A stretch of DNA of 35,123 bases from IMG/VR virus record IMGVR_UViG_3300017992_000008, positions 1 to 35,123 of that record. One strand, 5' to 3'. Under the pieces are notes generated by a model. The model was not told the origin of the DNA. It made no database searches and saw only the letters and a list, made by a program, of their open reading frames with translations. Positions 1,679 to 29,210 of the stretch are shown piece by piece. Numbering within the stretch: position 1 is the first letter of the stretch; each line of letters opens with the position of its first letter. Source of the stretch: a virus. The position numbers were made by a program, and so were the translations under genes.

Positions 1679-2146
1679 ATGGCACAAGAGATTTTAATAG
1701 CTAGTAAAGTTGCTTACTCACAAGATGATAAGCAATTATTGCGCAATGTTTATAGAAAAGTTAATGACTTCACTTATATTATCAATACGAAAGATACTGG
1801 CATATATAACGATGAAGAATTTTTTACATCTCAACAATGGTATGTTAATAAAGCCGTTGGTGATCAAGAAACAATATATCGCAAAGTAATTGATTGTGGA
1901 GCACTTCCTAATTCAGCAATAAAACTTGTTGCGCATAACTTAAATCCAGGTGGAACCATAGACAATACATGGGATTTTATAAAGATTTATGGAGTTGCAA
2001 AAGATCCTGGAACTCCGCAATGGATTCCATTAGCTCATCCTGATATAATACTTCTTGTCAATAATACTAATATAGTAATTACAACTACAGCTAATTTAAG
2101 TGCTTATACCGATACTAAAATTATCATCGAATATATTAAGCCTTAG
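1679..2146 (+). CDS. Beta-rich virion-type protein of unknown role, 155 aa
   Basis: The ATG at 1679 is preceded by AGAGGA at good spacing. The C-terminal two thirds have an alternating beta-strand pattern (VIDCGALPNSAIKLVAHNL, then a WDFIKIYG stretch, and a closing IIIEYIKP). This resembles small beta-sandwich proteins often found beside phage tail genes, a family I recognise only loosely. It is the sole plus-strand gene in a long leftward virion block. It converges with the tail-hub gene, the two stop codons sharing bases 2144-2145. It has no signal peptide or membrane segment. A head-decoration or accessory receptor-binding protein acquired as an independent unit is plausible but inferred. 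Confidence 0.5.
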   Translation: MAQEILIASKVAYSQDDKQLLRNVYRKVNDFTYIINTKDTGIYNDEEFFTSQQWYVNKAVGDQETIYRKVIDCGALPNSAIKLVAHNLNPGGTIDNTWDFIKIYGVAKDPGTPQWIPLAHPDIILLVNNTNIVITTTANLSAYTDTKIIIEYIKP

Positions 2147-9018: not shown

Positions 9019-9035
9019 ACAACTTCCTTTATATT

Positions 9036-9044
9036 TGCTATAAT
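9036..9044 (+). promoter_or_regulatory. Extended -10 promoter for the plus-strand island
   Basis: TGCTATAAT begins at 9036, giving an extended -10 (TG, one base, TATAAT) about 40 bases upstream of the ATG at 9086, which has a strong GGAGG. No good -35 is needed for this class. It overlaps the promoter-like sequence of the divergent minus gene, so the two directions may compete. Confidence 0.55.
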
Positions 9045-9069
9045 ATAATTGACATATTAATAATCTAAA
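9040..9069 (-). promoter_or_regulatory. Possible promoter for the 176-aa/scaffold operon
   Basis: On the minus strand TTTAGA (9069-9064) and TATTAT (9045-9040) are separated by 18 bases, upstream of the ATG at 9018. The match is fair, and the site overlaps the plus-strand -10. Confidence 0.35.
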
Positions 9070-9085
9070 CTCGGAGGTAATTAAT

Positions 9086-9352
9086 ATGAAGGCAATAAAT
9101 GCCATTCTATTATTAACATTGTTCTCTTCTCTTACAATATGTCCAACTAACAAATATAAGAAGTTGCGGGTCTCCAAAAGATCTAGAGTTACTAAACAAG
9201 AAGAGAGGTTTTATAACAGAGACAACAAGAAGGCCAAAGTTTGTACACCAGAGGTAATAAATCTTACAGCAAAGATAGTGTCTTCTTTGATTCAAGGTGG
9301 CGCAATAATAATGGGAGCCGTTCTTAGAGCTGTTATAGACAACAACGATTAG
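9086..9352 (+). CDS. Small secreted or membrane protein of unknown function, 88 aa
   Basis: Residues 1-20 (MKAINAILLLTLFSSLTICP) look like a signal peptide or N-terminal anchor, though the Cys lacks a standard lipobox. A strongly basic middle follows (KKLRVSKRSRVTKQEERFYN), then a hydrophobic, Gly-containing C-terminal helix (about 58-84: LTAKIVSSLIQGGAIIMGAV). GGAGG at 9073-9077 supports the start. It opens the plus-strand island of small genes. Two hydrophobic segments flanking a basic loop could suit a holin-like or host-envelope protein, but nothing identifies it. Confidence 0.5.
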   Translation: MKAINAILLLTLFSSLTICPTNKYKKLRVSKRSRVTKQEERFYNRDNKKAKVCTPEVINLTAKIVSSLIQGGAIIMGAVLRAVIDNND

Positions 9353-9366
9353 TGTTTCGTGTAATT

Positions 9367-9388
9367 GGCCCGGTGAAATATCTGGGCC
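9367..9388 (+). terminator. GC-rich hairpin after the 88-aa gene
   Basis: GGCCCGG and CTGGGCC form a 7-bp stem (one G-U in RNA) with an 8-base loop, 15 bases past the stop. There is no real U-tract, so it is a weak terminator or an insulating element ahead of the next promoter at 9404. Confidence 0.4.
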
Positions 9389-9403
9389 GCTTAATTATAT
9401 AGC

Positions 9404-9432
9404 TTGACACAATATACACTATGTGCTATTAT
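9404..9432 (+). promoter_or_regulatory. Strong sigma70 promoter of the plus-strand island
   Basis: TTGACA (9404-9409), a 17-base spacer and TATTAT (9427-9432) make a near-consensus promoter. The first downstream gene with a ribosome site starts at 9470, and seven more-or-less overlapping genes follow in the same direction. Confidence 0.8.
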
Positions 9433-9469
9433 ATAGTATATAAGGGGATACAAGCCTTAAAGGATATTA

Positions 9470-9649
9470 ATGGTTATAATAATGTGTATATTTGGGTTTC
9501 TAACGTTGTTAATAATGGCGCTATGTAAGGCTGTATTAGCAATATCTGGTTCGGAGCACAAACGCAAATTAGAGATTGCCAGGGCGAGTAGGTGTTGCAA
9601 TTGTTGTAGGAGAAAAGATGAGATTAAACAAACGTCAAAAGATTATTGA
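9470..9649 (+). CDS. Small membrane protein with Cys-rich tail, 59 aa
   Basis: The ATG at 9470 follows AAAGGA by five bases and is the first start after the strong promoter. Residues 1-26 form one hydrophobic helix (MVIIMCIFGFLTLLIMALCK). The cytoplasmic-type tail is basic and carries a Cys cluster (RCCNCCRRKD, about residues 41-50), which could bind metal or form disulphides. It ends with TGA at 9649, inside the next gene, which starts at 9618, so translation is probably coupled. The function is unknown. Single-helix proteins of this size can be holin or superinfection-exclusion factors, but there is no direct evidence. Confidence 0.5.
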   Translation: MVIIMCIFGFLTLLIMALCKAVLAISGSEHKRKLEIARASRCCNCCRRKDEIKQTSKDY

Positions 9650-9860
9650 AGAATTGATGAGGTCATGTCTTTCTAATCAGGATAAAAAAACCATATTATT
9701 AATATTTAAAAATAAGAAGATAGATGCTGCTGTAGATCTTATAAATAACCCATCAAATATATCTGGCGATACAATTGATAGTATTGCAAAGACTATAGAT
9801 TATATTAGTGAGAAGCTATATAAATTAGACAAATATAAGATTATGACAAAGGATTTTTAG
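9618..9860 (+). CDS. Small helical protein of unknown function, 80 aa
   Basis: I chose ATG 9618, preceded by AGGAG at five bases; a TTG further upstream keeps the frame open but has no ribosome site. The protein is Lys/Ile/Asp-rich and probably all-helical (KRQKIIEELMRSC, then KKIDAAVDLINN, then SIAKTIDYISEKLYKLD). It overlaps the previous gene by 32 bases and its TAG shares a base with the GTG start of the next gene. The pattern suggests a small helical-bundle regulator or inhibitor, but I do not recognise a family. Confidence 0.5.
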   Translation: MRLNKRQKIIEELMRSCLSNQDKKTILLIFKNKKIDAAVDLINNPSNISGDTIDSIAKTIDYISEKLYKLDKYKIMTKDF

Positions 9861-10117
9861 TGATAAATAAAGCATTATTTGCTTCATTACTACTTTTCTC
9901 GACACTCGGGGGCATGAAGAAGGTCCCCGAGTGTCGAGATAAAGATTTCGAAGCTATAAGAACACAGATTAGGGAGCTCAATAGATTTGAGGCCATCCTA
10001 CGACTCAGGAGAGACATTAAAAAACAAATCTTAGAGAGCGAAGAAAATATGAAGAAATTTTTCAAAGAAGAGATTAAACGAAGAATCAATAAGGATAAAG
10101 ATGAACATAACATTTGA
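9860..10117 (+). CDS. Small protein with N-terminal signal/anchor and coiled coil, 85 aa
   Basis: The start is GTG at 9860 in a TAGTG overlap with the upstream stop. Residues 1-17 are hydrophobic (INKALFASLLLFSTLGG). After a short Lys/Pro/Cys linker, residues 27-80 form a charged helix or coiled coil (FEAILRLRRDIKKQILESEE). An N-terminal anchor plus coiled coil is the layout of inner-membrane spanins, but other roles fit equally well. An unusually strong hairpin (9897-9939) lies in its coding sequence just after the hydrophobic segment, and its loop contains an in-frame ATG (Met at about residue 19) that could start a shorter soluble form. Confidence 0.5.
   Translation: MINKALFASLLLFSTLGGMKKVPECRDKDFEAIRTQIRELNRFEAILRLRRDIKKQILESEENMKKFFKEEIKRRINKDKDEHNI
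9897..9939 (+). other. Near-perfect 17-bp hairpin inside a coding sequence
   Basis: Arms 9897-9911 and 9925-9939 are perfect 15-base inverted repeats (core CTCGACACTCGGGG). A G-U and a C-G pair extend the stem to 17 bp around a nine-base loop that contains ATG. It is not followed by a U-tract. It lies inside the 85-residue gene, about 37 bases from its GTG start, so it should affect translation or serve as a DNA- or RNA-binding site. Confidence 0.75.
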
Positions 10118-10433
10118 AGATCTTTCGGCTAAAGGCAAAGAAATAATTTGGGACGTAAAGAAGCAAGATGATGATAACTATGAGGTTACTGTTACATTTG
10201 ATCACGATGCAAATAAATCACTTATTCTCCATGCGGTCCCTGGTAAATATGTTACAGAAGATGGGGCCGCATATAAAGATAGAAAACTTACTGAGGAAGA
10301 ATCGCTAAAGCTTGTAGATCTAAGAGTAAAAACATGGCTAGAACAGCTACAACAGGCTGTATTTACAACAAAATTCTATGGCGGTAATATCAATGGATTT
10401 ATAAGTTCAGGGGAAGTTAATGGAAAGTCGTAA
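10101..10433 (+). CDS. Unknown acidic protein, 110 aa
   Basis: AAGGAT precedes the ATG at 10101, and the gene overlaps the previous one by 17 bases. The N-terminal half shows beta strands (EIIWDVKKQDDDNYEVTVTF, then HDANKSLILHAVPGKYV). The C-terminal half is helical (ESLKLVDLRVKTWLEQLQQA) with a Gly-rich tail (FYGGNINGFISSGEVNG). It has no signal peptide, membrane segment or Cys. I cannot assign a family. It shares the dense, overlapping arrangement of the island, which implies a common transcript from 9404. Confidence 0.5.
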   Translation: MNITFEDLSAKGKEIIWDVKKQDDDNYEVTVTFDHDANKSLILHAVPGKYVTEDGAAYKDRKLTEEESLKLVDLRVKTWLEQLQQAVFTTKFYGGNINGFISSGEVNGKS

Positions 10434-10713
10434 AGCTGAAGACATTCTACATGAGGTAATCGTTAAGGCTATAAAGATGAACACTCAAACTAGAATCAAT
10501 AAAGATCTAGATAATCAAGTAAAAGCAGTACATTCAGCAACAGTGATGTCTATTCTTGAGCCAGCATTTGATTACATGGTAAATACCGGTGATGAAGGGC
10601 TGGAAAAGATCGTTGAAGTATACAAGCAAGAGCTAAAGTATTTTCACGAGTGTGGACTTTTAACACATGGAGAACTAGAGGAAGCAGATGCGAAAGATAA
10701 CAGTAGTTCTTAG
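10420..10713 (+). CDS. Unknown helical protein, 97 aa
   Basis: The ATG at 10420 overlaps the previous gene by 14 bases, with GGGGA shortly upstream. The protein is charged and mostly helical (AEDILHEVIVKAIKMNTQTR; ILEPAFDYMVNTGDEGLEKI), with a helical continuation that carries a single Cys at about residue 79. The acidic C-terminus (LEEADAKDNSSS) overlaps the start of the next gene. No domain is recognisable. By context it belongs to the same co-translated set of small cytoplasmic proteins. Confidence 0.5.
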   Translation: MESRKAEDILHEVIVKAIKMNTQTRINKDLDNQVKAVHSATVMSILEPAFDYMVNTGDEGLEKIVEVYKQELKYFHECGLLTHGELEEADAKDNSSS

Positions 10714-10873
10714 AGATGAAACTCTTGAAAGGTTTGAATATATACTTAAGTCTCGTGCTGAGCGTGATGGATGGCAAAGAATACCAAGTTACAAGGAGAT
10801 TATGGTAGAAGCCATGCAACTACTTTACAGGAAGGAACGATATGGACAAGATCAAGAAGATGGTGGGACTTGA
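10688..10873 (+). CDS. Small ribbon-helix-helix-like protein, 61 aa
   Basis: The start (MRKITVVLRDETLERFEYIL) gives a short beta strand followed by a helix. A turn and a second helix (YKEIMVEAMQLLYRKERYG) follow. Strand-helix-helix in about 50 residues, with alternating polar and hydrophobic residues in the strand, is the Arc/MetJ/CopG layout of dimeric DNA-binding repressors. GAGG lies about 10 bases upstream of the start, inside the previous gene. If correct, it is the most likely regulator of the island or of the divergent scaffold operon. The fold call rests on pattern only. Confidence 0.4.
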   Translation: MRKITVVLRDETLERFEYILKSRAERDGWQRIPSYKEIMVEAMQLLYRKERYGQDQEDGGT

Positions 10874-11153
10874 TAGAGAGAGTGCATTACTACTTAAGAA
10901 CCAACAGATAAAAGTAAGACAAGAGATTGACGATCACAGCAAAAGACTATTATCTATGTGCTTCGAGAATGCTCTAATATTATTCTATGATACTGTTGAT
11001 AAGCGATTAGATCCTAAGACGGGTGAGATTACTAAAAGACAGACTATATATCTTTCTCCTAGATCTAACGGAAAATTCAATGAACTAGCATTTAGATACA
11101 ATTATACTATGCAAGATCTTGCCAATCTGGTTATTAAAAATATTTATGGGTAA
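10842..11153 (+). CDS. Unknown protein closing the plus-strand island, 103 aa
   Basis: The ATG at 10842 overlaps the end of the previous gene by 32 bases. The protein has a helical first half (ESALLLKNQQIKVRQEIDDH, one Cys in LLSMCFENALILFYD), a short acidic-basic link (DPKTGEITKRQTIYLSPRSN) and a C-terminal helix (FRYNYTMQDLANLVIKNIYG). The link and following segment recall small phage proteins with a helix-turn-helix-like end, but I do not recognise a family. It ends the island; the next gene is on the opposite strand beyond a hairpin at 11184-11204. Confidence 0.5.
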   Translation: MDKIKKMVGLDRESALLLKNQQIKVRQEIDDHSKRLLSMCFENALILFYDTVDKRLDPKTGEITKRQTIYLSPRSNGKFNELAFRYNYTMQDLANLVIKNIYG

Positions 11154-11183: not shown

Positions 11184-11204
11184 TAGGGTGGCAATGCCAC
11201 CCTA
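11184..11204 (-). terminator. Convergent-junction hairpin
   Basis: TAGGGTGGC and GCCACCCTA form a perfect 9-bp stem with a 3-base loop, between the end of the plus-strand island and the end of the 32-residue minus gene. On the minus strand the stem is followed by ACTTTTATG, a short U-tract. It could stop transcription from both sides. Confidence 0.6.
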
Positions 11205-11662: not shown

Positions 11663-13780
11663 CTATACTAACTCTTGTTGGAACATCTGCTCATCAGGTT
11701 GTAACATCTCTTCCTGAAATGCCTGCTCCTCTGGCATCTCAGGTTGCGCTATAGGCTCATTGGCCATCTCTTGATTGAGCAACTCATCTTCAAGCGGCAC
11801 TTCTTTGGCAGCATCCTCACGCTCAGCCTGTATTATCTGCATTAATTCCATAAGCTCATCAATCTTATTTGGATCTGATTGCTCAAGATCTTTAAGAACT
11901 TTAATAGCCTCTAGATTTGTTTCTTGCTCCTTGCGTGCAGTGTCCATAGCTTCGTTAATCATGTCAAACTTATCTTTATCTACCTCGCTATCACGAGTTT
12001 TTGCCAATGCTTGGTCAGCTTCAGCCTTAGCATTCATCATATTCATCGTAGCTTGTTGCTCAGCCATTGCAGCCTGTGCTTGTTGCTGTTGCATCTGTGC
12101 AACTTCTTGTTTCTGCTGATCTATAGCCTGTAATAACTCATCCTTGTTTTGTATATTAGCTGCATTGATCATAGCAGAATCTGGAATCTCAATACCAAGC
12201 TCCTTGAGAACCACAAGCTCCGTAAATGCTTGTTGACGTTGTGTCGCCGTATCGAATCCTTCTTCAATTGCAATATCATACTTAGCAAACTTCTTACTAT
12301 AGAACTCTTGTGTCGGTTCTTCACCTATAATTCGACGAACTTTACCCGGTGTATAATTATTCTGAATTACTTTTACAATAACCTCACCTAGTAATTTTTG
12401 TGAGTGGTCCAGCTGATCAAATAAAGTTTGTTGTTGAATAAGGGCCCAGCCATGACGTTGTTTTGCAAGTGCGGCTGATTTAAAGTCATCAGCTACACCT
12501 AAAAGCTCCTCGCTGGCACCAGATATCTCTTGGAATTCTCTCCCGAGGGCCTCAGTAAGCTGTGGCCATGAGCTTGGAATCTCATTCTGTGGTATAGGTA
12601 CAAAATCACCCATATCTGCATTCTTCTTAAGTCGTATCATGCGCCCCTGACCAGTCTTCATTGGTGCATCAGGATCTACAAGTGAGGATTCTTTATATAT
12701 ATAGCCATTAGTTGCAACTGATTCTGCATAATCAAGCTCTATAATCTTTCTTCTATTATATAGATATTGAGTATCCCTCAAACCTCGCACAATCCCCTGG
12801 ATTCTTAGTGGAAAATTATATACATCTGGATCAAAATACCCAAATACCGGTACGAATGGATACGTATCTATACCTAATGGATTAACATCGTCGTATACTA
12901 CAGATCCATTAACAAGTAATGCTAGCTTAACTGTTGGAACGTTCGTATCTATCACCTTAACTTGTGGATACATAGATAAAAACTCTCTAAGAGCTTCATC
13001 ACTACCCGTCCACTCCAACGTCTCTCCTAAATTGACATCAACTAAAAGTTTTTGCTTACGATAGTCCCTATAATAAAACTCGTCATATGCTAGTAAATTC
13101 TTATTTAGAAGTTCATTCTCTGGAAGATAAGGGAACTTACCATCATTATAATAAGATGTCATAGGCTCTATTATTTCTTTCTTATCAGGTATCAATGATA
13201 TTACCGCATCCTTGGTTAAGAATGATCGCTTCCACATTGCATTGCAATCAGATAAATCTCGCTTTCTGAAGTATGGATCCATAATGAAACTATTATAACT
13301 ACAGTTATCTACCCTGATATCACCAGATATAGGATCATTTCTGTAGTCAACCCACACCTGCATAAGATTCATACCTGTAACCATAGCGCCATTATACGCT
13401 TCTGATACTACATCTAATATATTAGCATTGCGTGTAGCAGAAGATAGAAGCTTTGTAAGTTGATCTGCAGTTGATTGATCACTATTCTCTACAGGAGTCG
13501 CCTTCATAGACTTGCGAGTCCTACGTTGATATCCAGAGAGGAGATTAGTTATTCGCCTAATATGATTAAAACTAAAGTTTTTTCTCGTTCTTATAGGGAC
13601 ACTATACAATTCACTCCATAAGGTCTGGTCGCCAGCGTTAAACCTAGCGTCAATACTAGCCTCATGCCAATACGTCTGGTTTACCATCATAGCATCATTG
13701 TAGAATGTCTCGACCATCTCTCTTATGGCAGCATCTCCACTGTTGAATGTCATAATGTTGCCCTGAGGAAATAAAGCCAT
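11663..13780 (-). CDS. Portal protein, P22 type, 705 aa
   Basis: The protein forms the dodecameric ring at the head vertex through which DNA is packaged and ejected. The N-terminal region (about 40-120: WHEASIDARFNAGDQTLWSE, then RITNLLSGYQRRTRKSMKAT) matches the start of P22-type portals. The core continues with DPYFRKRDLSDCNAMWKRS, FPYLPENELL, PFVPVFGYFDPDVY and GIVRGLRDTQYLYNRRKIIE, then EISGASEELLG (around 430) as in this family. The C-terminal 150 residues are a long Gln/Glu/Ala coiled coil, consistent with a portal barrel. Length is close to the P22 portal (725). GGAGT precedes the ATG. It is separated from TerL by a nuclease gene and a structured gap. Confidence 0.85.
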   Translation of the reverse strand: MALFPQGNIMTFNSGDAAIREMVETFYNDAMMVNQTYWHEASIDARFNAGDQTLWSELYSVPIRTRKNFSFNHIRRITNLLSGYQRRTRKSMKATPVENSDQSTADQLTKLLSSATRNANILDVVSEAYNGAMVTGMNLMQVWVDYRNDPISGDIRVDNCSYNSFIMDPYFRKRDLSDCNAMWKRSFLTKDAVISLIPDKKEIIEPMTSYYNDGKFPYLPENELLNKNLLAYDEFYYRDYRKQKLLVDVNLGETLEWTGSDEALREFLSMYPQVKVIDTNVPTVKLALLVNGSVVYDDVNPLGIDTYPFVPVFGYFDPDVYNFPLRIQGIVRGLRDTQYLYNRRKIIELDYAESVATNGYIYKESSLVDPDAPMKTGQGRMIRLKKNADMGDFVPIPQNEIPSSWPQLTEALGREFQEISGASEELLGVADDFKSAALAKQRHGWALIQQQTLFDQLDHSQKLLGEVIVKVIQNNYTPGKVRRIIGEEPTQEFYSKKFAKYDIAIEEGFDTATQRQQAFTELVVLKELGIEIPDSAMINAANIQNKDELLQAIDQQKQEVAQMQQQQAQAAMAEQQATMNMMNAKAEADQALAKTRDSEVDKDKFDMINEAMDTARKEQETNLEAIKVLKDLEQSDPNKIDELMELMQIIQAEREDAAKEVPLEDELLNQEMANEPIAQPEMPEEQAFQEEMLQPDEQMFQQELV

Positions 13781-14082: not shown

Positions 14083-14745
14083 TTAATATTTTCTTAATTT
14101 CTTAGATTTAAACTTCATTGCTCCAAATCTGTTCTCTAACAAATCTAAGTCATCTATCTTAAAGTAAATCTTGTTATCCTTGTGCTTATCTCTGTAGCAA
14201 GATTTTCGATTCAATACAGAAATATCTTCCATAAATACCCCATGAGGTGACGGTTCAATCGAGTGAATTCCAAGTCCCCCATCAAGCTTCCAAGCAACTG
14301 CTATAAAGTTTGTTTTAAACTCCCTATCAATATTTAAATAACGCTCGAATAAATCATAATCCATAACAACCGCCCAATACGGATCACCTTCAGATGGAAC
14401 ATACCGAGTTGCTACTTCAAGATGTTTAACCTCAAGAAGCCTATAATAGCCTGGTGTATTAACAATTATGTCTGGGCACTGACACTCATCATCTTCAATA
14501 AGATTATCAAGCGTAGTACCACGCCCCTTAAGATCTTTTATACCAACTTTAACTGCATCAACCCCCATAGATAAAAATCTCCTAATAATGTCCTCCTCGG
14601 CGGCATGACCATAAGCTCTGTTCTGCATCCAAGAAAGATTACCCTTAATACTAAATTTTGTATCTATATTTTTAACCTGATCACACTGAATATCCGTCAA
14701 TGTTTTTAACTTTGCTTCAATCTTTAACATTTGTAAATCTGTCAT
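14083..14745 (-). CDS. PD-(D/E)XK-type nuclease, 220 aa
   Basis: Residues 43-58 (RAYGHAAEEDIIRRFLSMG) give the leading helix with an acidic residue; PDIIV at 91-95 supplies the Asp, and LLEVKH at 103-108 the E-x-K. Together they make the classic E, PD, ExK metal site of restriction-like endonucleases. GRGTTLDN lies between the first helix and PD. Relatives include phage resolvases, recombination exonucleases and mobile nucleases; which one this is cannot be told from sequence alone. It stands between terminase and portal, so a role in trimming DNA for packaging is possible, as is defence against competing phages. An ACTTAGTAGGAG ribosome site precedes the ATG. Confidence 0.65.
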   Translation of the reverse strand: MTDLQMLKIEAKLKTLTDIQCDQVKNIDTKFSIKGNLSWMQNRAYGHAAEEDIIRRFLSMGVDAVKVGIKDLKGRGTTLDNLIEDDECQCPDIIVNTPGYYRLLEVKHLEVATRYVPSEGDPYWAVVMDYDLFERYLNIDREFKTNFIAVAWKLDGGLGIHSIEPSPHGVFMEDISVLNRKSCYRDKHKDNKIYFKIDDLDLLENRFGAMKFKSKKLRKY

Positions 14746-14804: not shown

Positions 14805-16170
14805 GTTCAATAAACACGGGCGGAAGATTAGACCCTCCACCATATGTTAATTCTTTGTATCTTTTATCAAAATCTTCTGGAGGTCGCTCATCAGAATCAA
14901 TATGTGCTAATGACATACACATATATCTAAACGCATCAGCATGATCTGTAGCCCAATCTTCTTTATCTTTATTATGAAATCTCTTAGTCACTGGATCCCA
15001 ACGTCTAGAATAATGTTCTAACGCATCCAACAATAATGTACAATTGTTCTCATCAATAAAGACTCTCTTAAATGTATGACGAACCACCTCAATTCCATCA
15101 TTCAATAATGTCTGATCTAAAACCTCTGTATCAAGTCCCAATCTATTCAAAATCTGTAGCCTCGTCTCACCAGATCCAAGCTCATGTTTTTTAGCATCAT
15201 GAGGGAAGAAATGCTTCCCATATTGATAACCTTTCGTATCAGAATATGAGCGTAACAGACTCACATAATGTGAAAGATCTTCGTTACTTTTATGATAATG
15301 GTCAATAACGCAAACCTTTCTGCCAATCACCTGATAAAATATAATAACACTAGGGCACCGATACCCAAGATCCCAAGCAGTATAAACCTCATGAGAACTA
15401 TCATGGGGTACATAACCGACCCGCTGGTCAGCATACGCTTGGTGAACATACTTCGCATAGTAAGCTCCCGTATTTGCAACCTCAAAGGAGGAATAATATT
15501 CCTGCAAGAACATCTCATCAGACATTCTCGCTTTCTCCTGAGCAAGAACCTTAGCAGTTACATGCTTAGTTTCATCAACGGTAAGGATTTGAGAGTACCA
15601 TTCAGGATCATCGCCGCTCTTGGCATGCTTATACACATCATAGAAAGCATTATGGCCATTAGGTGTAGATATAAATACTACCCAACCACCATTCGCAGCC
15701 AATATAGGTGCGATAACCCCATTGTAAGCTTCAGGATGATTAACGCGACTATATTCAGAAAACACAACACCAACAGGATTAGTTCCTCTAAGCGAGTCTG
15801 CATTATCAGCTCCATTGAATTGAATGATACTACCGTTAACAAGCACAATCTTCATCTCTACGTTGTTTTTCTTAGCAATCAAGCGTCGAGGTATAAAATC
15901 TAAAAACTTTTCGCCTGTGATCAATATTGAGTCCCATACAGCACGACGACACTGATCATATTTGGGGTAGAGATAATAATATACCCCGACACGCTTAAAT
16001 GCCTGGCGTAGCATGAGGTTGAGGGAAGCCACGTCTTTACCGGCACGACGTGGCCATACAATGACAAACTTCTTCTTGCCCTCATGCTCTAAGGCATTAA
16101 TGAGATCCTTCTGATACCAGCGAGGCTCAAAAGTAGTAACTTTTATGACTTCTTCTCTTCTTTCTTGCAT
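14794..16170 (-). CDS. terL: Terminase large subunit (TerL), 458 aa
   Basis: The packaging motor ATPase and nuclease docks on the portal. The N-terminal ATPase domain has an adenine-binding region (RWYQKD, 17-22), Walker A WPRRAGKD (39-46), a Walker B-type block VGVVFSEYS (133-141, with Ser-Glu in place of Asp-Glu) and coupling motif STPNG (168-172). The C-terminal RNase H-like nuclease has AWDLGY (Asp267), FFPHDAK (Asp325) and TDHADAFRY (Asp409/Asp412). Length is normal for the family. The start at 16170 overlaps the upstream membrane-protein gene by 28 bases. A probable small subunit lies five genes upstream, so the packaging genes are not adjacent. Confidence 0.93.
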   Translation of the reverse strand: MQERREEVIKVTTFEPRWYQKDLINALEHEGKKKFVIVWPRRAGKDVASLNLMLRQAFKRVGVYYYLYPKYDQCRRAVWDSILITGEKFLDFIPRRLIAKKNNVEMKIVLVNGSIIQFNGADNADSLRGTNPVGVVFSEYSRVNHPEAYNGVIAPILAANGGWVVFISTPNGHNAFYDVYKHAKSGDDPEWYSQILTVDETKHVTAKVLAQEKARMSDEMFLQEYYSSFEVANTGAYYAKYVHQAYADQRVGYVPHDSSHEVYTAWDLGYRCPSVIIFYQVIGRKVCVIDHYHKSNEDLSHYVSLLRSYSDTKGYQYGKHFFPHDAKKHELGSGETRLQILNRLGLDTEVLDQTLLNDGIEVVRHTFKRVFIDENNCTLLLDALEHYSRRWDPVTKRFHNKDKEDWATDHADAFRYMCMSLAHIDSDERPPEDFDKRYKELTYGGGSNLPPVFIEREY

Positions 16171-16421
16171 TCTTCAGGCTTCTCTTCCTTTAATTTACGT
16201 CTGGTACGCTTATGTTTGTTCGCAGACAAAGCTTTCTCAATCTTTCCATCTATACTTAAGCGATATGATGCAATCTCGTGCCTCATACCAGCCAAGTGAC
16301 TCTTAAGCTCACGAATAGTCTCGGCATTATCATCCTGAACCGATTGATAAAGCTTAAAAGTTATAAACATATCTAGAGTTATCATTAACCCAAACAACAA
16401 AAACATAGTAGATATAGCCAT
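16143..16421 (-). CDS. Membrane-anchored coiled-coil protein, spanin-like layout, 92 aa
   Basis: An N-terminal transmembrane helix (FLLFGLMITLDMFITFKLY, about residues 7-25) is followed by a coiled coil (SVQDDNAETIRELKSHLAGM, then RHEIASYRLSIDGKIEKAL) and a very basic/acidic tail (NKHKRTRRKLKEEKPEEC). AAGGAG precedes the ATG. Anchor plus coiled coil matches inner-membrane spanins of lysis cassettes in layout, and the adjacent two-helix gene would suit a holin, but no endolysin is found. The assignment is inferred; an uncharacterised membrane factor is the alternative. Confidence 0.5.
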   Translation of the reverse strand: MAISTMFLLFGLMITLDMFITFKLYQSVQDDNAETIRELKSHLAGMRHEIASYRLSIDGKIEKALSANKHKRTRRKLKEEKPEECKKEEKKS

Positions 16422-16436: not shown

Positions 16437-16625
16437 TTAAGAGTTTATAAAAGAATCAATAAGGTCATACCAAAAGACTGCTGACGTCACAATCACCGGT
16501 ATACCAAAAAACATAAAACCTAATGTAAACATACTTAAATTAAAGAACTCTATACCTACAATGATGGCTATAAATACTACCATCAAGATAATAGATAGAG
16601 TACAAATTTTATCATCACTTCTCAT
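16437..16625 (-). CDS. Small membrane protein, two predicted helices, 62 aa
   Basis: Two hydrophobic segments (ILMVVFIAIIVGIEFFNL and FTLGFMFFGIPVIVTSAVFW) are joined by a short loop, with a polar N-terminus (MRSDDKICT) and a short acidic C-terminus. Its ATG overlaps the stop of the Cys-rich gene (ATGA). Two-helix small proteins next to a coiled-coil anchor protein suggest a holin, but no sequence signature shows it. Confidence 0.5.
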   Translation of the reverse strand: MRSDDKICTLSIILMVVFIAIIVGIEFFNLSMFTLGFMFFGIPVIVTSAVFWYDLIDSFINS

Positions 16626-22324: not shown

Positions 22325-22397
22325 TAGCCCTAGGGGGAATTGAACCCACCGACTCCGTCTTGAAAGAACGACGTCCTCACCACTAGACTATAGGGCC
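22325..22397 (-). tRNA. tRNA-Glu (anticodon UUC)
   Basis: A full cloverleaf is readable. The 7-bp acceptor stem (GGCCCTA with TAGGGCT) has a G-U first pair. The D arm carries TAGTGGTGA, the anticodon stem-loop TCGTT-CTTTCAA-GACGG has UUC at 22364-22362, and the T loop is TTCAATT on a stem with one U-C mismatch. The 3' CCA is not encoded. The 5' end begins directly after the stop of the upstream 100-residue gene, so it is probably cut out of the fibre-operon transcript. Phage tRNAs often supplement host decoding of codons that the phage uses more. Confidence 0.85.
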
Positions 22398-22713: not shown

Positions 22714-25700
22714 TTAACTTAGTAAGCATCCACTTATATGAGTATTATATGGAGAGCTTGTACCATTAATATCAACAACATCACTTGCCTCACCAACAAC
22801 ACGCACAACGAATGTACATGTATCAGAAGCGTCCATGTCAGCTATAACCGATATACTTGTCCCTGTCTGTGGAGTGCCATTTGGATCTACAACAAATTGA
22901 TAGCTTCTATTTGAAGTTACAACACGCGTATTAATTAATGTAGCGGAAGCTGTCATATTCTGGTATAACACAGAATAATTAATCTGATATTTACCAGTTA
23001 CTGGCGCTGTAAATGTACCGTTAGTATTAAAATCACTTCCAATATCATATACTTCTGTAAACGCAACATTAGTACCCAATGTATATGCTGTACCTGCTCC
23101 TGTTACATTGTTATCAGAGCTGCCAAGATATGCTAAAAATCTAACATTCTCTAACGATCCCAGTTGTCCATTAGAATCTATAATCAAAGACCCATCATGA
23201 CCACCACTAGGCGTTGTGTTATATATACCTGCAATAAAGCACGTATCTTGTTCAAAGTTGCCTGTGCCTTGAGTACCTATGCGTATGGTGTTATTATCGC
23301 CTGCTATGCCAGCATTAGATATGCATATATTATCTGAATCATTTGTTGTAAGAGAATCACCTCCCGTATTTCCAAGACAGATATTATTTGATCCACTGAC
23401 AAGGTTACCTAATGCTGTTGATCCTATAGCTAGATTATTGCTACCTGTGGTAAGCTTTTCCGCTGCCAATCTACCTATAAGCATATTGCTATCACCAGAT
23501 GTAACACTCTTCCCTGCTTCTGTTCCTATACCAACATTAAAACTACCATCCAGAACATCTTCTAAGGCTAATCCTCCAATTGCAACATTTGATATACCAT
23601 CTGCCACACTTGTTAAGGCATTATACCCAAATGCCATATTATAATTGCCAGTTGTTAAAGCATCCAATGTTCCAGATCCAGCACTAACATTATATGATCC
23701 ACTTAAAGTTCCATTACCAGCATTTGCACCAATAAATACATTATCTGTTCCATAAGTATGAAATACTCTTGTACTATTAATCTCTATGACACCCTCAGTT
23801 AATGCAGCATTTGTGGTAGGAAGATTAAGATTATTTGTTCCAATGATGTCACCAACAGTTCCAAGCTGTCCACTAGCATCAGTAAGTACTGTACCAGTAA
23901 CTGCGCCTGTTGGCGTTGTGTTATATATACCAGCTATAAAGCACGTATCTTGTTCACCATTACCCGTGCCCTGCGTTCCTATACGTATAGTGTTATTATC
24001 CCCGACCGTTCCAGAACTCGATATAAGAATATTGTCACTATCTGTCCCTGTTAATGCTGATCCAGCTGCGTTACCCATACCAACATTGTAGCTACCCGTT
24101 GTAATACTAGCTAATGCATTATTTCCTAAGCAAGAGTTCCTCTCTCCGCTTGTAACCTCCAACATCGAATTGATACCAATACTCATATTAAACAGAGCAG
24201 TTGTAGCAGCTTTAAGCGATTGTGTACCTATAGCTATATTTTGAGTGCCACCTTGAAGTGTAGTCAATGCATCATATCCTATAGCTACATTGTCATCGTC
24301 GTTAGATGCGCCACTCAAATTGTCCAACGCGTTTACACCAATACCTATGTTTCTTATTGCGTTAGCATTCATTGTTCCATTACCGGCATTTGCTCCGATA
24401 AAAGTATTGCTAGTGCCAAACGTATGAAATATTCTTGTGCCATTCTGCTCAATGACGCCTTCAGATAAGGCAGCATTCGTTGTAGGAAGATTTAAATTAC
24501 CTGCAGACGCCGTTATATCTCCTGTTGTTGCAGTCACCCCTGTACCCGCTGTAAGCGATCCTGATACAGATGGGCTGTTGTCCAGGTTAACTGTTACAGT
24601 TGAAGTTGCTCCCGCAGTGTTCATATTTGAGCCACCTGCTACTGTAAATACTGCTGATGCTGCCTGAGCAGAGCCACTGTCAGTTGTCATTGTAAGATCA
24701 TCTATAGTTTCTAAAGCAGATTGTACTGTTGTATCAGCTGCACTTAATATATGGTCAAAGTTAGTTGTATCTGTAAGCACCAAGGACGCAGTTGTTGCAG
24801 TTACCCCAGAGAAACTTGTTCTAGCAGTCTCCTTGGCAATAACTACTTGAACTATCGATGTAGTAGATTCTTCAAATACTATATAACCAAGCTGGGCTAG
24901 CTCTAAAGCTGCCAGCTCTCCAGTAGCTGTAGGAATAGAGTCGTTAGCAATAGCAGTGTCAGCAGCAGCCAAGTTGTTATACTCAGCGTCACCCATAACA
25001 GAAAAGTATACAGGTGTAGCAGAATTAAGATTGTCTTTGCTTACATATAATCTATTAACAGTATATTTATTACTTCCAATTGCTGTTGGTGTCCCTGCAT
25101 TGTTCCAGGTGCCATCAAACGTATCACTCTGCGCATTGCGTGCCCACTTGCCTGAGCCCAAGGTATAATACTGTTCAAATGTTTCAGCTACACCTCCACT
25201 GTCTGGAATAGTAGTTTCAAGTCCATGATCCTCAAGCTCATCTGCTCCTGATATCTCTATCTTTTGAGTGCCGTTAAGAGTAATATTAGCACCACCTTGC
25301 TTATCAGATATAACAGGCCCTATTGTATCGTGTGCCCACACAGATGCTTTCCATGGAAATTCGAATGGATGATTTTCTTTAACCGTGACCTGGATATTAG
25401 TGCCTGTTGTAGAGTCTCTTAAGCATTCGAACAAGACTATATAATCACTAAACAATGTATCTGAATATGACGTCGTCTTGCCTATAGTGCCAGTATTATC
25501 AATATAAATATAATAAGTATTACCAGCTGTCATACCAGTTACAGTCTGTGGAGCTGTCCATGTTACTTGCACACCTTTAATATATCCAGTACCTGCTTGT
25601 GATACTGTGAACTGACCAAGTGTAGTATCGTCAAAATATGGTGCTCCACCTGACCATCCTTCAAATCCTGAATCAGACTTTAGGACGTCAGACGTATCCA

Positions 25701-25971
25701 ATGTTGTAGTACTTCCAGCGCCAGATGTAGATAATGGTCCTGATGCCCCTACAACGCTAAACGCTCCACTAGCTGGAGTGCAAGTGCCTGAGTCCGTTGT
25801 AATTGATGTAGGAACTGCATCAAAATCAATATCTCTATCATCTACTGTCCACGTACGAGTGGTCGCTGTTGTTACGCCAGATACATCTACAGTAACTTCT
25901 TTAGTAATATCTGTGCTATCAGTTACTGTAAGTGGCCCAGTCTTGTTATTTATCGAATTTTTCGTTGCCAT
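22714..25971 (-). CDS. Large tail-fibre protein with YadA-head-like repeats and C1q-like tip, 1085 aa
   Basis: Residues 1-90 are nearly the same as the start of the 245-residue neighbour (MATKNSINNKTGPLT, then DDRDIDFDAV and SGTCTP), so this is probably the virion-attachment part. Residues 100-420 are a beta-rich shaft (GSGKWARNAQSD; YFSVMGDAEYNNL). Two long cassettes (about 491-705 and 725-930) carry short repeats with alternating IGxxAL/TTGxxN patterns like trimeric-adhesin head domains, each ending IRIGTQGTGN-x-EQDTCFIAGIYNTTP. The last about 140 residues form a C1q-like jelly-roll-type domain (FTAPVTGKYQINYSV; MDASDTCTFVVRV). It probably binds the host surface. AAGGGGG precedes the ATG. 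Confidence 0.7.
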   Translation of the reverse strand: MATKNSINNKTGPLTVTDSTDITKEVTVDVSGVTTATTRTWTVDDRDIDFDAVPTSITTDSGTCTPASGAFSVVGASGPLSTSGAGSTTTLDTSDVLKSDSGFEGWSGGAPYFDDTTLGQFTVSQAGTGYIKGVQVTWTAPQTVTGMTAGNTYYIYIDNTGTIGKTTSYSDTLFSDYIVLFECLRDSTTGTNIQVTVKENHPFEFPWKASVWAHDTIGPVISDKQGGANITLNGTQKIEISGADELEDHGLETTIPDSGGVAETFEQYYTLGSGKWARNAQSDTFDGTWNNAGTPTAIGSNKYTVNRLYVSKDNLNSATPVYFSVMGDAEYNNLAAADTAIANDSIPTATGELAALELAQLGYIVFEESTTSIVQVVIAKETARTSFSGVTATTASLVLTDTTNFDHILSAADTTVQSALETIDDLTMTTDSGSAQAASAVFTVAGGSNMNTAGATSTVTVNLDNSPSVSGSLTAGTGVTATTGDITASAGNLNLPTTNAALSEGVIEQNGTRIFHTFGTSNTFIGANAGNGTMNANAIRNIGIGVNALDNLSGASNDDDNVAIGYDALTTLQGGTQNIAIGTQSLKAATTALFNMSIGINSMLEVTSGERNSCLGNNALASITTGSYNVGMGNAAGSALTGTDSDNILISSSGTVGDNNTIRIGTQGTGNGEQDTCFIAGIYNTTPTGAVTGTVLTDASGQLGTVGDIIGTNNLNLPTTNAALTEGVIEINSTRVFHTYGTDNVFIGANAGNGTLSGSYNVSAGSGTLDALTTGNYNMAFGYNALTSVADGISNVAIGGLALEDVLDGSFNVGIGTEAGKSVTSGDSNMLIGRLAAEKLTTGSNNLAIGSTALGNLVSGSNNICLGNTGGDSLTTNDSDNICISNAGIAGDNNTIRIGTQGTGNFEQDTCFIAGIYNTTPSGGHDGSLIIDSNGQLGSLENVRFLAYLGSSDNNVTGAGTAYTLGTNVAFTEVYDIGSDFNTNGTFTAPVTGKYQINYSVLYQNMTASATLINTRVVTSNRSYQFVVDPNGTPQTGTSISVIADMDASDTCTFVVRVVGEASDVVDINGTSSPYNTHISGCLLS

Positions 25972-26188
25972 CGACTACCCCCTTAGAAGCATTGTATTCG
26001 TTCTCTTCTTTCTTAATTCCTTCTTTCTCTTCTGGTGTAAAATCAATCTCTATCCCTGTCTTCGCTTCGATAATCTGCTCAGCTATCTGCTCTAATGCAT
26101 TGTCTTTCTTCTTGATAATTATTGTTGATATTGCACCAACAATGAGAGAAACACCAACTATTATTGCTCCGACTAAATTTAAACTCAT
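25946..26188 (-). CDS. Small membrane protein between the two fibre genes, 80 aa
   Basis: A hydrophobic N-terminal helix (SLNLVGAIIVGVSLIVGAIS, about 2-24) is followed by a basic turn (KKKD) and a charged helix (NALEQIAEQIIEAKTGIEID). The C-terminal codons overlap the start of the 1085-residue fibre by 26 bases. GGAG precedes the ATG. Such short proteins (helix plus E-rich tail with an AEQIIEAKTG motif) recur in phage structural blocks and are sometimes called holin-like, but I cannot show it. A shortened relic copy lies upstream of the other fibre (26945-26986). Confidence 0.5.
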   Translation of the reverse strand: MSLNLVGAIIVGVSLIVGAISTIIIKKKDNALEQIAEQIIEAKTGIEIDFTPEEKEGIKKEENEYNASKGVVDGNEKFDK

Positions 26189-26203
26189 AACTAACTCCTC
26201 AAA

Positions 26204-26941
26204 TTAACCAACTAAATTACCAGAGAACCATGTATTGAATGGAGTTCCGGCTCCGCCAACATCAATATCTTTTAGCCCAGAAGTAACAGTAACTTCAAGC
26301 TTTGCAGTATCAGAAGAATCCATGTCTATAAGGATAGAACCTGCAACACTAAGTTCACCTCCAGTAGAACATGCATATGGGTTACATTTATGCACAAGAA
26401 AACTCCCATTACTAGAGTTTAATACTAGAGTGTAGAATGTATCACTAGAATCAAAATCTTGCATATTTACAGCAAAATCAAACCTATATTTGGCTGTACT
26501 GGGCGCGGTAAATACGCCAGTACTTGCATTAAAATCAGATCCCGCATCAAACATCTCGGTAAACCCTTCAGTGCTGCCTACCACATGCGTCGTCCCATCA
26601 CCAGTTACATTGTCCTCATTCTCTGATAGTCTTGCCAGAAATCCTACATCTAAACTTCCTGCGCCACCAGCAGTTACTGTAATTGTACTACCACTTGCTG
26701 ATGTTGAACCTCCAGATCCAACTATGGAGAACGAGCCTCCTGCCGGTGTGCAGGTTCCTGAATCTGTACTTATAGAAGTAGCTACTGCATCAAAGTCTAT
26801 ATTTCTATCATCCATAGTCCAAGTACGTGTAGTGCCTGTACTTACTGGGCTGACATCATATAATATTTCTTTGGTAATGTCAGCACTGTCAGTAATAGTA
26901 AGCGGCCCAGTCTTATTATTTATCGAGTTTTTCGTTGCCAT
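26204..26941 (-). CDS. Short tail-fibre paralogue with C1q-like tip, 245 aa
   Basis: The first 90 residues match the large fibre (MATKNSINNKTGPLTITDSA, then DDRNIDFDAVATS, then SGTCTPAGG). The remaining 150 form a C1q/TNF-like jelly-roll domain of the same family as the tip of the large fibre (FTEMFDAGSDFN, then FTAPSTAKYRFDF, then MDSSDTAKLEVTVTSG, ending FNTWFSGNLVG). It is thus attachment part plus receptor tip without the shaft, probably a second receptor-binding protein or a cap. AAGGAG precedes the ATG. The relic upstream and the shared 5' flank show descent by tandem duplication. Confidence 0.7.
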   Translation of the reverse strand: MATKNSINNKTGPLTITDSADITKEILYDVSPVSTGTTRTWTMDDRNIDFDAVATSISTDSGTCTPAGGSFSIVGSGGSTSASGSTITVTAGGAGSLDVGFLARLSENEDNVTGDGTTHVVGSTEGFTEMFDAGSDFNASTGVFTAPSTAKYRFDFAVNMQDFDSSDTFYTLVLNSSNGSFLVHKCNPYACSTGGELSVAGSILIDMDSSDTAKLEVTVTSGLKDIDVGGAGTPFNTWFSGNLVG

Positions 26942-26944
26942 CGA

Positions 26945-26986
26945 CTATCTCCTTAGAAGCATTACTCCGATTATATTTAAACTCAC
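26945..26986 (-). pseudogene. Remnant of a second copy of the 80-aa membrane-protein gene
   Basis: These bases read VSLNIIGVMLLRR then stop. The first seven codons match the start of the 80-residue gene (MSLNLVGAI). The last part reads NASKG-type codons in the other frame, matching the 3' end of that gene before the shared fibre start. An internal deletion of about 200 bases joined the two. The bases then run straight into the fibre start, exactly as in the intact copy. Confidence 0.65.
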
Positions 26987-26988
26987 AA

Positions 26989-27141
26989 CTAACTCCCATA
27001 TTCTGAAGCATAGCGTGCCCTAATGCTCGCTTGTGCTTTAGTTTTTGAACTTGAATATCCAACAACTTTCCAGCGACCGTTCTCCTTCTTGTAGATCGGC
27101 CAACCTTTCTTAGTTTTTTTAGATCCTGTCTTCCATGGCAT
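26989..27141 (-). CDS. Small basic protein, 50 aa
   Basis: The ATG at 27141 follows AGGAG by five bases. The product is Lys/Arg/Ser-rich with aromatic residues (MPWKTGSKKTKKGWPIYKKE, then GRWKVVGYSSSKTKAQASIR, ending ARYASEYGS). The short form, in which a strand pattern with W-x-V is followed by K-x-K-A-x-x-x-x-R, is typical of tiny phage and virus proteins of unknown role. It lies between the 536-residue fibre and the short fibre. Confidence 0.6.
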   Translation of the reverse strand: MPWKTGSKKTKKGWPIYKKENGRWKVVGYSSSKTKAQASIRARYASEYGS

Positions 27142-27150
27142 TATAAACTC

Positions 27151-28761
27151 CTATACTATTGTCCAGTTTCCCTTACTGCTTAAGACTGTCCATGTCGTGT
27201 TAGCAACAGTACACAACAATTCTACAGCGTCATAATCATCTGTAGACTCAATATAGCCACCTACTCCAACTGTCGTAGCACTAACTTCATCCCAAATAAT
27301 CTGCTCCCCGGCATTCTGGGATACCTTAACTCCACCTGCACCTTTACCACATATGCGCACAACAGAACCAAGAGCCGCTGTATCAGGTAAAGTCACATCT
27401 ACTTGCGCTGCGTTATTTGTGATATATCCAGTGTCTACTGCGGCTGCTTGCGTGGTTCCGGTTACTTCTGACCATGTAATACCACCACCTGAGATTGTAA
27501 CAGTATTACCTGCTCCATCAGTAGATAGAGAGCCAGAGCCAACAATATTTATGATACCTCCGGCAGGTGTAGCAGTAGTTCCATCTGTCGCATATGATGT
27601 TGCAACCTCGTCCATATCAATATCACGATCATCCATTGTAATAGTACGCGTAACACCATTAGATATTTGGTCGCATTGAAATACTAATTCTTTTGTATTA
27701 TCAGCATCATCATATATAGTAAATACGCTATCTGCAAACTCACTTACAACGGCAGATGCAGTAGAACCAAGTTCACCATTAGCATCTATAATGACTGTCT
27801 GATAAGCTCCTGTAGGAGTTACGCCATGAATGCCTGCTATAAATGTGTTATTTTGCTCGCCTATGCCAGTACCTTGTTTTCCTATTCGTATAACATTGTC
27901 ATCTCCAGCTACACCAATATTGCCGATTAAGATGTTATCAGAATCTGTTGTTGTTATAGCACTTCCTGCATTGTGTCCTACAGCTATATTTGAATCACCC
28001 GTAGTAATGTTTTCTAATGTAGAGGAACCTATGGCTGTATTGTTAAATCCTGTTGTAAGATTAGACAGAGAATTGAAACCTATAGCTGTAGTATCATCGC
28101 CTGTTGTGAGATTTTCTAGCGAAGAATTCCCAATTCCAACACTAGATACTGCAGTTGTAACATTCTCGCCAGAATCTCCTCCAAGAAATACGTTATCGGT
28201 TCCCAGGGCATGTAAGAACGGCACTGAATTTATCTCAATAGCTCCCTGAGTTAATGCTGCATTAGTAGTCGGAAGAGTAAGATTTCCAGCTTGTATAGCT
28301 GCATTTCCTGAAGTTACAATAAGCGCTGTCCCTGCTGTTACTGTTCCAGGAAAATCTGGATCAATAAGACTTAGATCCTGATCACACATTGTAATTTCAC
28401 GCACTGTACCTGTTGTAATCTGATCACATTCAAACGCTAATTTTGCAGTATTATCGCCATCGTCATACACCCTGAATACATTATCCGCAAACTCGTTACC
28501 TGCTGTTGCTGATATAGTTATTGTTCCTGCTCCATTGACTACATTTATATTAGCACCTGCAGTAATAGTCGAAAGCACCGGAGCTGCGCCAGTTGATCCT
28601 ATTGGGATTTGTCCATCGGTAGCAACTGCAAGCGATGTGAGTGCACCTGTAGCAGCACCTACTACTAATGCATTAGGTGTTGCCCCTACTATCTCACCTG
28701 GATTGGTAATATTAAGTGGCAGCCCTAACGATGTAGCCGCATCTATATATATTTGTGACAT
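27151..28761 (-). CDS. Fibre-type protein with YadA-head-like repeats and beta C-terminal domain, 536 aa
   Basis: The N-terminus (MSQIYIDAATSLGLPLNITN) differs from the other fibres, but the protein repeats two modules shared with them: the DDRDID-x-D-E-VATS-TDG-T-TPAGG segment and an adhesin-head cassette (about 190-330: IGNSSLENLTTGDDTTAIGF, ending IRIGKQGTGIGEQNNTFIAG). The C-terminal about 110 residues (ITWSEVTGTTQAAAVDTGYI, then LPDTAALGSVVRICGKG, ending WTVLSSKGNWTI) form a known fibre-tip-like beta domain. It probably contributes to host binding. AGGAGT precedes the ATG. Confidence 0.65.
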   Translation of the reverse strand: MSQIYIDAATSLGLPLNITNPGEIVGATPNALVVGAATGALTSLAVATDGQIPIGSTGAAPVLSTITAGANINVVNGAGTITISATAGNEFADNVFRVYDDGDNTAKLAFECDQITTGTVREITMCDQDLSLIDPDFPGTVTAGTALIVTSGNAAIQAGNLTLPTTNAALTQGAIEINSVPFLHALGTDNVFLGGDSGENVTTAVSSVGIGNSSLENLTTGDDTTAIGFNSLSNLTTGFNNTAIGSSTLENITTGDSNIAVGHNAGSAITTTDSDNILIGNIGVAGDDNVIRIGKQGTGIGEQNNTFIAGIHGVTPTGAYQTVIIDANGELGSTASAVVSEFADSVFTIYDDADNTKELVFQCDQISNGVTRTITMDDRDIDMDEVATSYATDGTTATPAGGIINIVGSGSLSTDGAGNTVTISGGGITWSEVTGTTQAAAVDTGYITNNAAQVDVTLPDTAALGSVVRICGKGAGGVKVSQNAGEQIIWDEVSATTVGVGGYIESTDDYDAVELLCTVANTTWTVLSSKGNWTIV

Positions 28762-28769
28762 AACAACTC

Positions 28770-29117
28770 CTATGTTCTATTATGATAGCCATTGGCTACG
28801 TCTACAGATCCACTTGTTGGAGCTGCGCCTGCGGTATATCTTTTGACGTACACAACTGTACCTTTAGGAAGTGCAAGCCCATCCGACGCACTATCAATAA
28901 TAATATGTCCACCTGCTGGTATAGCTAACATATCATTAGCACCATCAAAGCTTACTTTAACAGCTATATCAGTAAAATTATTAATCATAAATACTCGCGT
29001 TGGATAACCAAGTCCTGTACCAATTGCAGTATAGGCATCTACTACACCTCCAAATGCCAATGTTCGTAGAGGCTCAAACCATCCGCGCTGAGTCGATAAA
29101 TTCTGAAATCCACTCAT
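28770..29117 (-). CDS. Small beta-rich virion protein, 115 aa
   Basis: The N-terminal polar start (MSGFQNLSTQRGWFEPLRTL) is followed by beta strands (RVFMINNFTDIAVKVSFDGA; AGGHIIIDSASDGLALPKGT) and a VYVKRYTAGAAPTSGSV end, a layout typical of small phage structural proteins that pair with fibres. AGAGGAG precedes the ATG. It lies between two fibre genes, with eight bases to the following one. It may be a fibre adaptor or cap; this is inferred. Confidence 0.55.
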   Translation of the reverse strand: MSGFQNLSTQRGWFEPLRTLAFGGVVDAYTAIGTGLGYPTRVFMINNFTDIAVKVSFDGANDMLAIPAGGHIIIDSASDGLALPKGTVVYVKRYTAGAAPTSGSVDVANGYHNRT

Positions 29118-29170
29118 TATACACTCCTCTTATATTTAAAAATATTTTTAGCCATATAAGATCCTTTAAG

Positions 29171-29198
29171 ATGGCGCCCAACTTATGTCAGGCGCCAT
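29171..29198 (-). terminator. Junction hairpin after the 963-aa fibre gene
   Basis: ATGGCGCC and GGCGCCAT pair perfectly over 8 bases around a 12-base spacer, 12 bases past the fibre stop. On the plus strand TATTTTC follows, and on the minus strand CTTAAAGG follows, so a terminator would work better toward the plus side. Confidence 0.45.
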
Positions 29199-29210
29199 TA
29201 TTTTCATAAA

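Follow-up and report, generated by a model that had tools for sequence, protein, structure and literature searches.

We analysed an island of eight small rightward genes set within the leftward head genes of a tailed phage, and our preferred reading, held with modest confidence, is that the island is an insulated, early-expressed and self-regulated module with small envelope proteins among its products. The island has a core of three genes that is fixed in order and orientation among close relatives, and two of the core products are of ribbon-helix-helix (RHH) type by predicted structure or sequence pattern.

The window, the whole stretch of DNA that was analysed, is a complete IMG/VR record of 35,123 bases. 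Its proteins gave strong PHROG family matches for portal, major head protein and large terminase, with the portal merely 22-25% identical to its nearest cultured relatives. No tyrosine integrase match was found in the window or in four relatives, records that may be incomplete. All eight rightward ORFs were found where a preliminary description had placed them, dividing the leftward head genes (Table 1). That description had the island splitting the portal from the scaffold genes; it does lie between the two but is in direct contact with neither, as g11323 and g11217 separate it from the portal and g8488 separates it from the scaffold. One further gene, at 1679-2146 (+), also runs antisense to the late block; it is conserved in the clade (~49-72%) and is without a family match. 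Elsewhere in the window we noted a tRNA-Glu (TTC) gene at 22325-22397 (-), between an ERF-like gene and the tail genes, and, at 22714-32102 (-), long fibre-like proteins in which near-identical repeats (NNTIRIGTQGTG, DADGVLELNSSAG and others like them) occur many times.

Table 1. Positions of the island genes and of the transcription signals in and around the island.
Feature	Position	Strand	Remarks
Divergent promoter region, g8488 (leftward) / i1 (rightward)	9022-9085		TGCTATAAT is the extended -10 for i1; conserved in i1-bearing relatives; weak leftward promoter-like sites
i1, 88 aa	9086-9352	+	Signal-like hydrophobic N-terminus, hydrophobic C-terminal stretch; separate unit
Terminator-like hairpin downstream of i1	9366-9389	+	Equivalent hairpin position in L004, L017, L020, L030
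Island promoter, TTGACAC-N12-GTGCTATTAT	9404-9432	+	Overlapping TGACAC/GTGYYA element is a candidate operator; type common to all eight populations
i2, 59 aa	9470-9649	+	Single-span membrane peptide, Cys cluster; most relatives have short single-span membrane peptide ORFs
i3, 80 aa	9618-9860	+	Helical, variable; no relative found
i4, 85 aa, GTG start	9860-10117	+	N-terminus resembles a signal peptide; remainder charged and helical
i5, 110 aa, core protein	10101-10433	+	Predicted alpha-beta3-alpha; present in all eight populations
i6, 97 aa	10420-10713	+	Helical; missing in L004, L037/L038
i7, 61 aa, core protein	10688-10873	+	RHH-like; all eight populations; fused to i8 in L006
i8, 103 aa, core protein	10842-11153	+	Tandem (two-domain) RHH, predicted structure
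Late-sense terminator ahead of island	11184-11204	-	Hairpin and T-rich tail here in all eight populations

Related loci were found by portal and capsid scans, followed by tblastn of the window genes and by calling genes in the portal-g8488 interval (hereafter the slot). Close relatives with a sequenced slot made up seven other populations (L003/L004, L005/L017, L006, L007, L009/L030, L020 and L037/L038), with portal identities of ~58-91%, as against ~46-52% for the distant relatives. A codon model built from genes already known in the clade gave each of the eight ORFs its best score in its own frame. Moreover, tblastn found homologues in relatives for seven of them, all but i3, and we therefore regard these seven as real genes. 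Scans of all eight products against Pfam, PHROGs, NCBIfam and PADLOC returned chance-level matches only and no credible one.

Comparison of the slot among relatives separated a fixed from a variable part of the island. The genes i5, i7 and i8 were present in 8/8 populations, window included, with slot, order and antisense orientation all kept. In the close relatives the variable part consists of i1-i4 and i6: i1 was present in L004, L017, L020 and L030 and absent from L006 and L038, some relatives lack i1 and i2 or have other genes in their place, and i3 was found by tblastn in none of the related loci. In the distant relatives, i5-i8 were not found by tblastn or by gene calls at the slot. In most of these the slot holds short genes on the same strand, and in some it holds other cargo, such as a DNA methylase in L027; in L097, a still more distant relative, the slot is nearly empty. 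The slot of another distant relative (L013:10038-12016) holds GroES (Cpn10, E 6.5e-15) and GroEL (Cpn60, E 7.4e-72). IMG/VR scans with i5 and i8 gave matches confined to the window's own clade, neither protein had a tblastn match in cultured phages, and searches of cultured phages with portal, i5 and i8 found no isolated close relative of the lineage. Within one lineage, then, the island core is fixed, while the slot itself differs in content across the wider family. Another variable slot lies between portal and terminase, where the gene at 14083-14745 (-), which had no match in Pfam or PHROG, shows 28-33% identity in relatives whose portals are 91-98% identical.

By its signals the island seems to consist of two transcription units, i1 alone and i2-i8. 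The island promoter is the sole 11/12 sigma-70 match within 7.5-13.8 kb and has an extended -10 TG; as a class, promoter-like sites were not commoner in this interval than in shuffled sequence. It had been described as the strong promoter of all eight genes. Its strength was borne out, but it would serve i2-i8 only, because i1 ends before it, with a hairpin in between. At the other end, a late-sense hairpin with T-rich sequence precedes the island in eight of eight populations, so that head-gene transcription would be expected to end at this point and resume on the far side. These signals suggest that the island is independently transcribed and insulated by terminators. Since it is an insulated, non-structural insert in the late block, in a slot whose content differs in the wider family, we consider the island moron-like, which retains part of the earlier label of accessory cargo. 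It is not sporadic cargo, however, because all close relatives with a sequenced slot have i5, i7 and i8 in one fixed order and orientation.

These observations also bear on whether the island encodes proteins of virion assembly whose antisense placement is incidental, the least probable of the explanations that we weighed and one that we regard as extremely unlikely. Its position between portal and scaffold and its fixation in the clade would suit such a role. However, the genes lie on the opposite strand with their own promoter and terminators, and the distant relatives share the head genes without having i5-i8. The preliminary description had taken fixation in relatives together with structural homology as the pattern that would count against cargo; fixation was found for the core in the near clade, whereas structural-gene homology was found for no island member.

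The best-characterized product of the core is i8, which was folded alone with AF2. The model (pLDDT 94.3) has the order E4-10 H12-28 H36-51 / E65-71 H73-85 H90-102, that is, beta-alpha-alpha twice in one chain, in line with the fold that defines the RHH (MetJ/Arc) superfamily, and holds no domain besides the two RHH units. In Foldseek searches against the PDB, the eleven best matches were chains of the F-plasmid relaxosome (probability 0.93-1.00, TM ~0.57-0.67, E 0.012-0.27), with 13-21% identity in the structural alignments. We take these chains to be TraY; the structure library names the complex only. F TraY is described as a monomer in which one polypeptide forms the whole RHH dimer fold (PMC12117103). 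Against named viral RHH/CopG proteins, Foldseek gave TM values of 0.68-0.74. In the alignment of relatives, the invariant residues K3, K5, R66, T68 and Y70 alternate at or in the two predicted strands (4-10 and 65-71), and we infer that they face DNA as in RHH proteins.

Sequence searches gave weaker matches. The window's own i7 and i8 had no Pfam RHH match, PDB profile searches with i5, i7 and i8 gave nothing credible, and a PDB sequence search with i8 gave nothing significant. Among relatives of i8, each family match came from a single member: RHH_7 at 6.4e-4 in one, RHH_1 at 0.021 for L030, under its cut-off, an 'Arc-like repressor' at E 0.18 in one, and phrog_876 (phage transcriptional repressor) at E 9.5e-6 over residues 15-94 of the L030 protein. 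Overall, i8 is predicted from the model to be a tandem RHH protein. With its RHH-type sequence pattern, i7 looks like a single RHH domain; it had no match in Pfam or the PDB, and its profile did not match the i8 domain profiles significantly in alignments made without the fused L006 protein. In that population i7 and i8 are fused in one 170-aa ORF (L006:6717-7226, -). The preliminary description had recognized the RHH type in the island but missed i8 as a second protein of this type. It had also proposed anti-defence cargo; the best-identified part of the island is regulatory instead.

RHH proteins are a common class of antitoxin, and the small genes of the island overlap, features that would fit a toxin-antitoxin-like module in which i7 and i8 would be the antitoxins and either i5 or i6 the toxin. 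We consider this quite unlikely, as i1-i6 had no toxin family match in the Pfam, PHROG, NCBIfam and PADLOC scans, the RHH genes are kept in two populations that have no i6, and i8 consists of its two RHH units alone. The AF2 model of i5 (pLDDT 84.6) is an alpha-beta3-alpha arrangement with no Foldseek match among PDB folds. PDB profile matches of i6 were to designed PPR/solenoid repeats only; these were treated as generic helical matches, and i6 was not taken to be a PPR/solenoid protein.

A candidate site of action for the RHH proteins overlaps the -35 and -10 of the island promoter. All eight populations share one type of island promoter, TTGACAC (TTGACTC in L020)-N12-GTG(T/C)(T/C)A. The pattern TTGACNC-N12-GTGYYA occurred at 13 sites in four near-clade genomes and at none in eight distant genomes, and its reversed control gave 0 sites. 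Some of the sites are those of the island promoter, and others stand ahead of early-region genes in relatives G001-G004. The GTG element was present in 13 of 22 promoter-like sites in intergenic DNA and in none of the 13 within genes (p = 0.0006); base-by-base covariation of the dyad was not significant in a permutation test. Part of the CAC/GTG signature may reflect a strong host promoter with an extended -10. Moreover, motif and island co-occur within one clade, and shared ancestry alone could explain their association. The window's own early promoter (20604) has AAA...ATG in place of CAC...GTG, and the full element is absent from it. Extra small RHH-like genes were seen in the early regions of G003 (contig 12491-12649, in L071) and G004 (contig 28822-28986, in L074), each behind a promoter of the TTGACAC-N12-GTG type; since these two genomes carry them, another protein could be the ligand of the element.

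In the mechanism we propose, i7 and i8 would bind DNA at the TGACAC-N12-GTGYYA element, and the operon would thereby be autorepressed. They may also tune or shut off early transcription, a role suggested because the island promoter type also precedes early genes in relatives. The remaining two core and variable proteins, i5 and i6, are probably partners or effectors under the control of the RHH proteins.

The small secreted or membrane products could have a role at the cell envelope, such as superinfection exclusion. Inspection of sequence and hydropathy confirmed hydrophobic N-termini on three products, i1, i2 and i4, and located the Cys cluster that had been noted to i2. As an alternative to the self-regulated module, the island may be an envelope-targeted exclusion or host-takeover operon whose purpose is i1, i2, i4, i5 and i6 and whose RHH proteins merely autoregulate. 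We regard this as possible although doubtful. The three signal-like or membrane N-termini speak for it, as does a short single-span peptide being usually the first gene downstream of the island promoter in relatives, and the comparable region of P22 contains the exclusion gene sieA (PMC2629481). However, the membrane genes belong to the variable part of the island while the RHH genes and i5 are fixed, and no exclusion-protein homology was found among the products in the Pfam, PHROG and NCBIfam scans. The same three small membrane or exported proteins could instead be holin- or spanin-like members of a lysis cassette, and lysis genes were identified nowhere else in the window. We judge this very unlikely: an early-type promoter and RHH partners are ill-suited to a late lysis unit, two of the three genes (i1 and i2) are not constant among relatives, and the small membrane genes at 16143-16421 and 16437-16625 are better conserved candidates.

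Under the self-regulated module that we favor, a former block of 'unknown cargo' becomes a testable regulatory module in which a TraY-like tandem RHH protein is paired with a defined promoter element, and which includes two proteins, i5 and i6, without an assigned family. If i7 and i8 control early promoters, they would constitute a candidate temporal switch for an uncultured lineage of phages. As for the host, strong portal relatives occurred in 8 of 233 genomes from the phylum to which a Chlamydiia MAG belongs and in 0 of 460 genomes of two control phyla (p = 0.00015), counts that leave out centre genomes. The portal relatives in Chlamydiota MAGs (L062, L085-L097) are distant ones outside the window's own clade, and they lie mostly on separate phage-sized contigs of 15-41 kb, for which mis-binning is possible. 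The counts hint at chlamydiae as hosts of the wider phage family, and few tailed phages of Chlamydiota are known. A more far-reaching proposal, which we consider unlikely, is that a tailed-phage lineage, possibly on Chlamydiota, has a fixed antisense head-operon island whose tandem-RHH protein is the early-gene master switch of a shared promoter-operator regulon, making the island an immI counterpart without integrase, with i5 and i6 as new effectors.

A literature search for a matching phage module returned the comparison with P22 only. Arc and Mnt of P22 belong to the RHH class. The P22 ant moron is an independently expressed block in the late operon that carries mnt and arc for repressors, ant for an antirepressor and sieA for exclusion, and the content of the ant moron/immI region differs among wider P22-like relatives (PMC2629481). 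The island resembles it as a block inside a late operon with RHH proteins, with its own promoter and terminators (known here from sequence), and with slot content that varies with distance. The two differ in that immI lies next to the tailspike gene whereas the island lies between portal and scaffold genes, family scans detected no homologue of ant, arc, mnt or sieA in the island, the island phage is without a detectable integrase, the island core is fixed and not in flux, and the island has two RHH domains on one chain. By analogy, the island may work like the P22 ant moron, without homology to it or membership in it. The match of phrog_876 to the L030 i8 is a further, partial likeness; the profile has 239 positions, is partly covered and was not reached by the window's own i8. 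Finally, although no relaxase, oriT or conjugation context was seen with the island, the i8 model shares with F-plasmid TraY the arrangement of both halves of an RHH dimer in a single chain.
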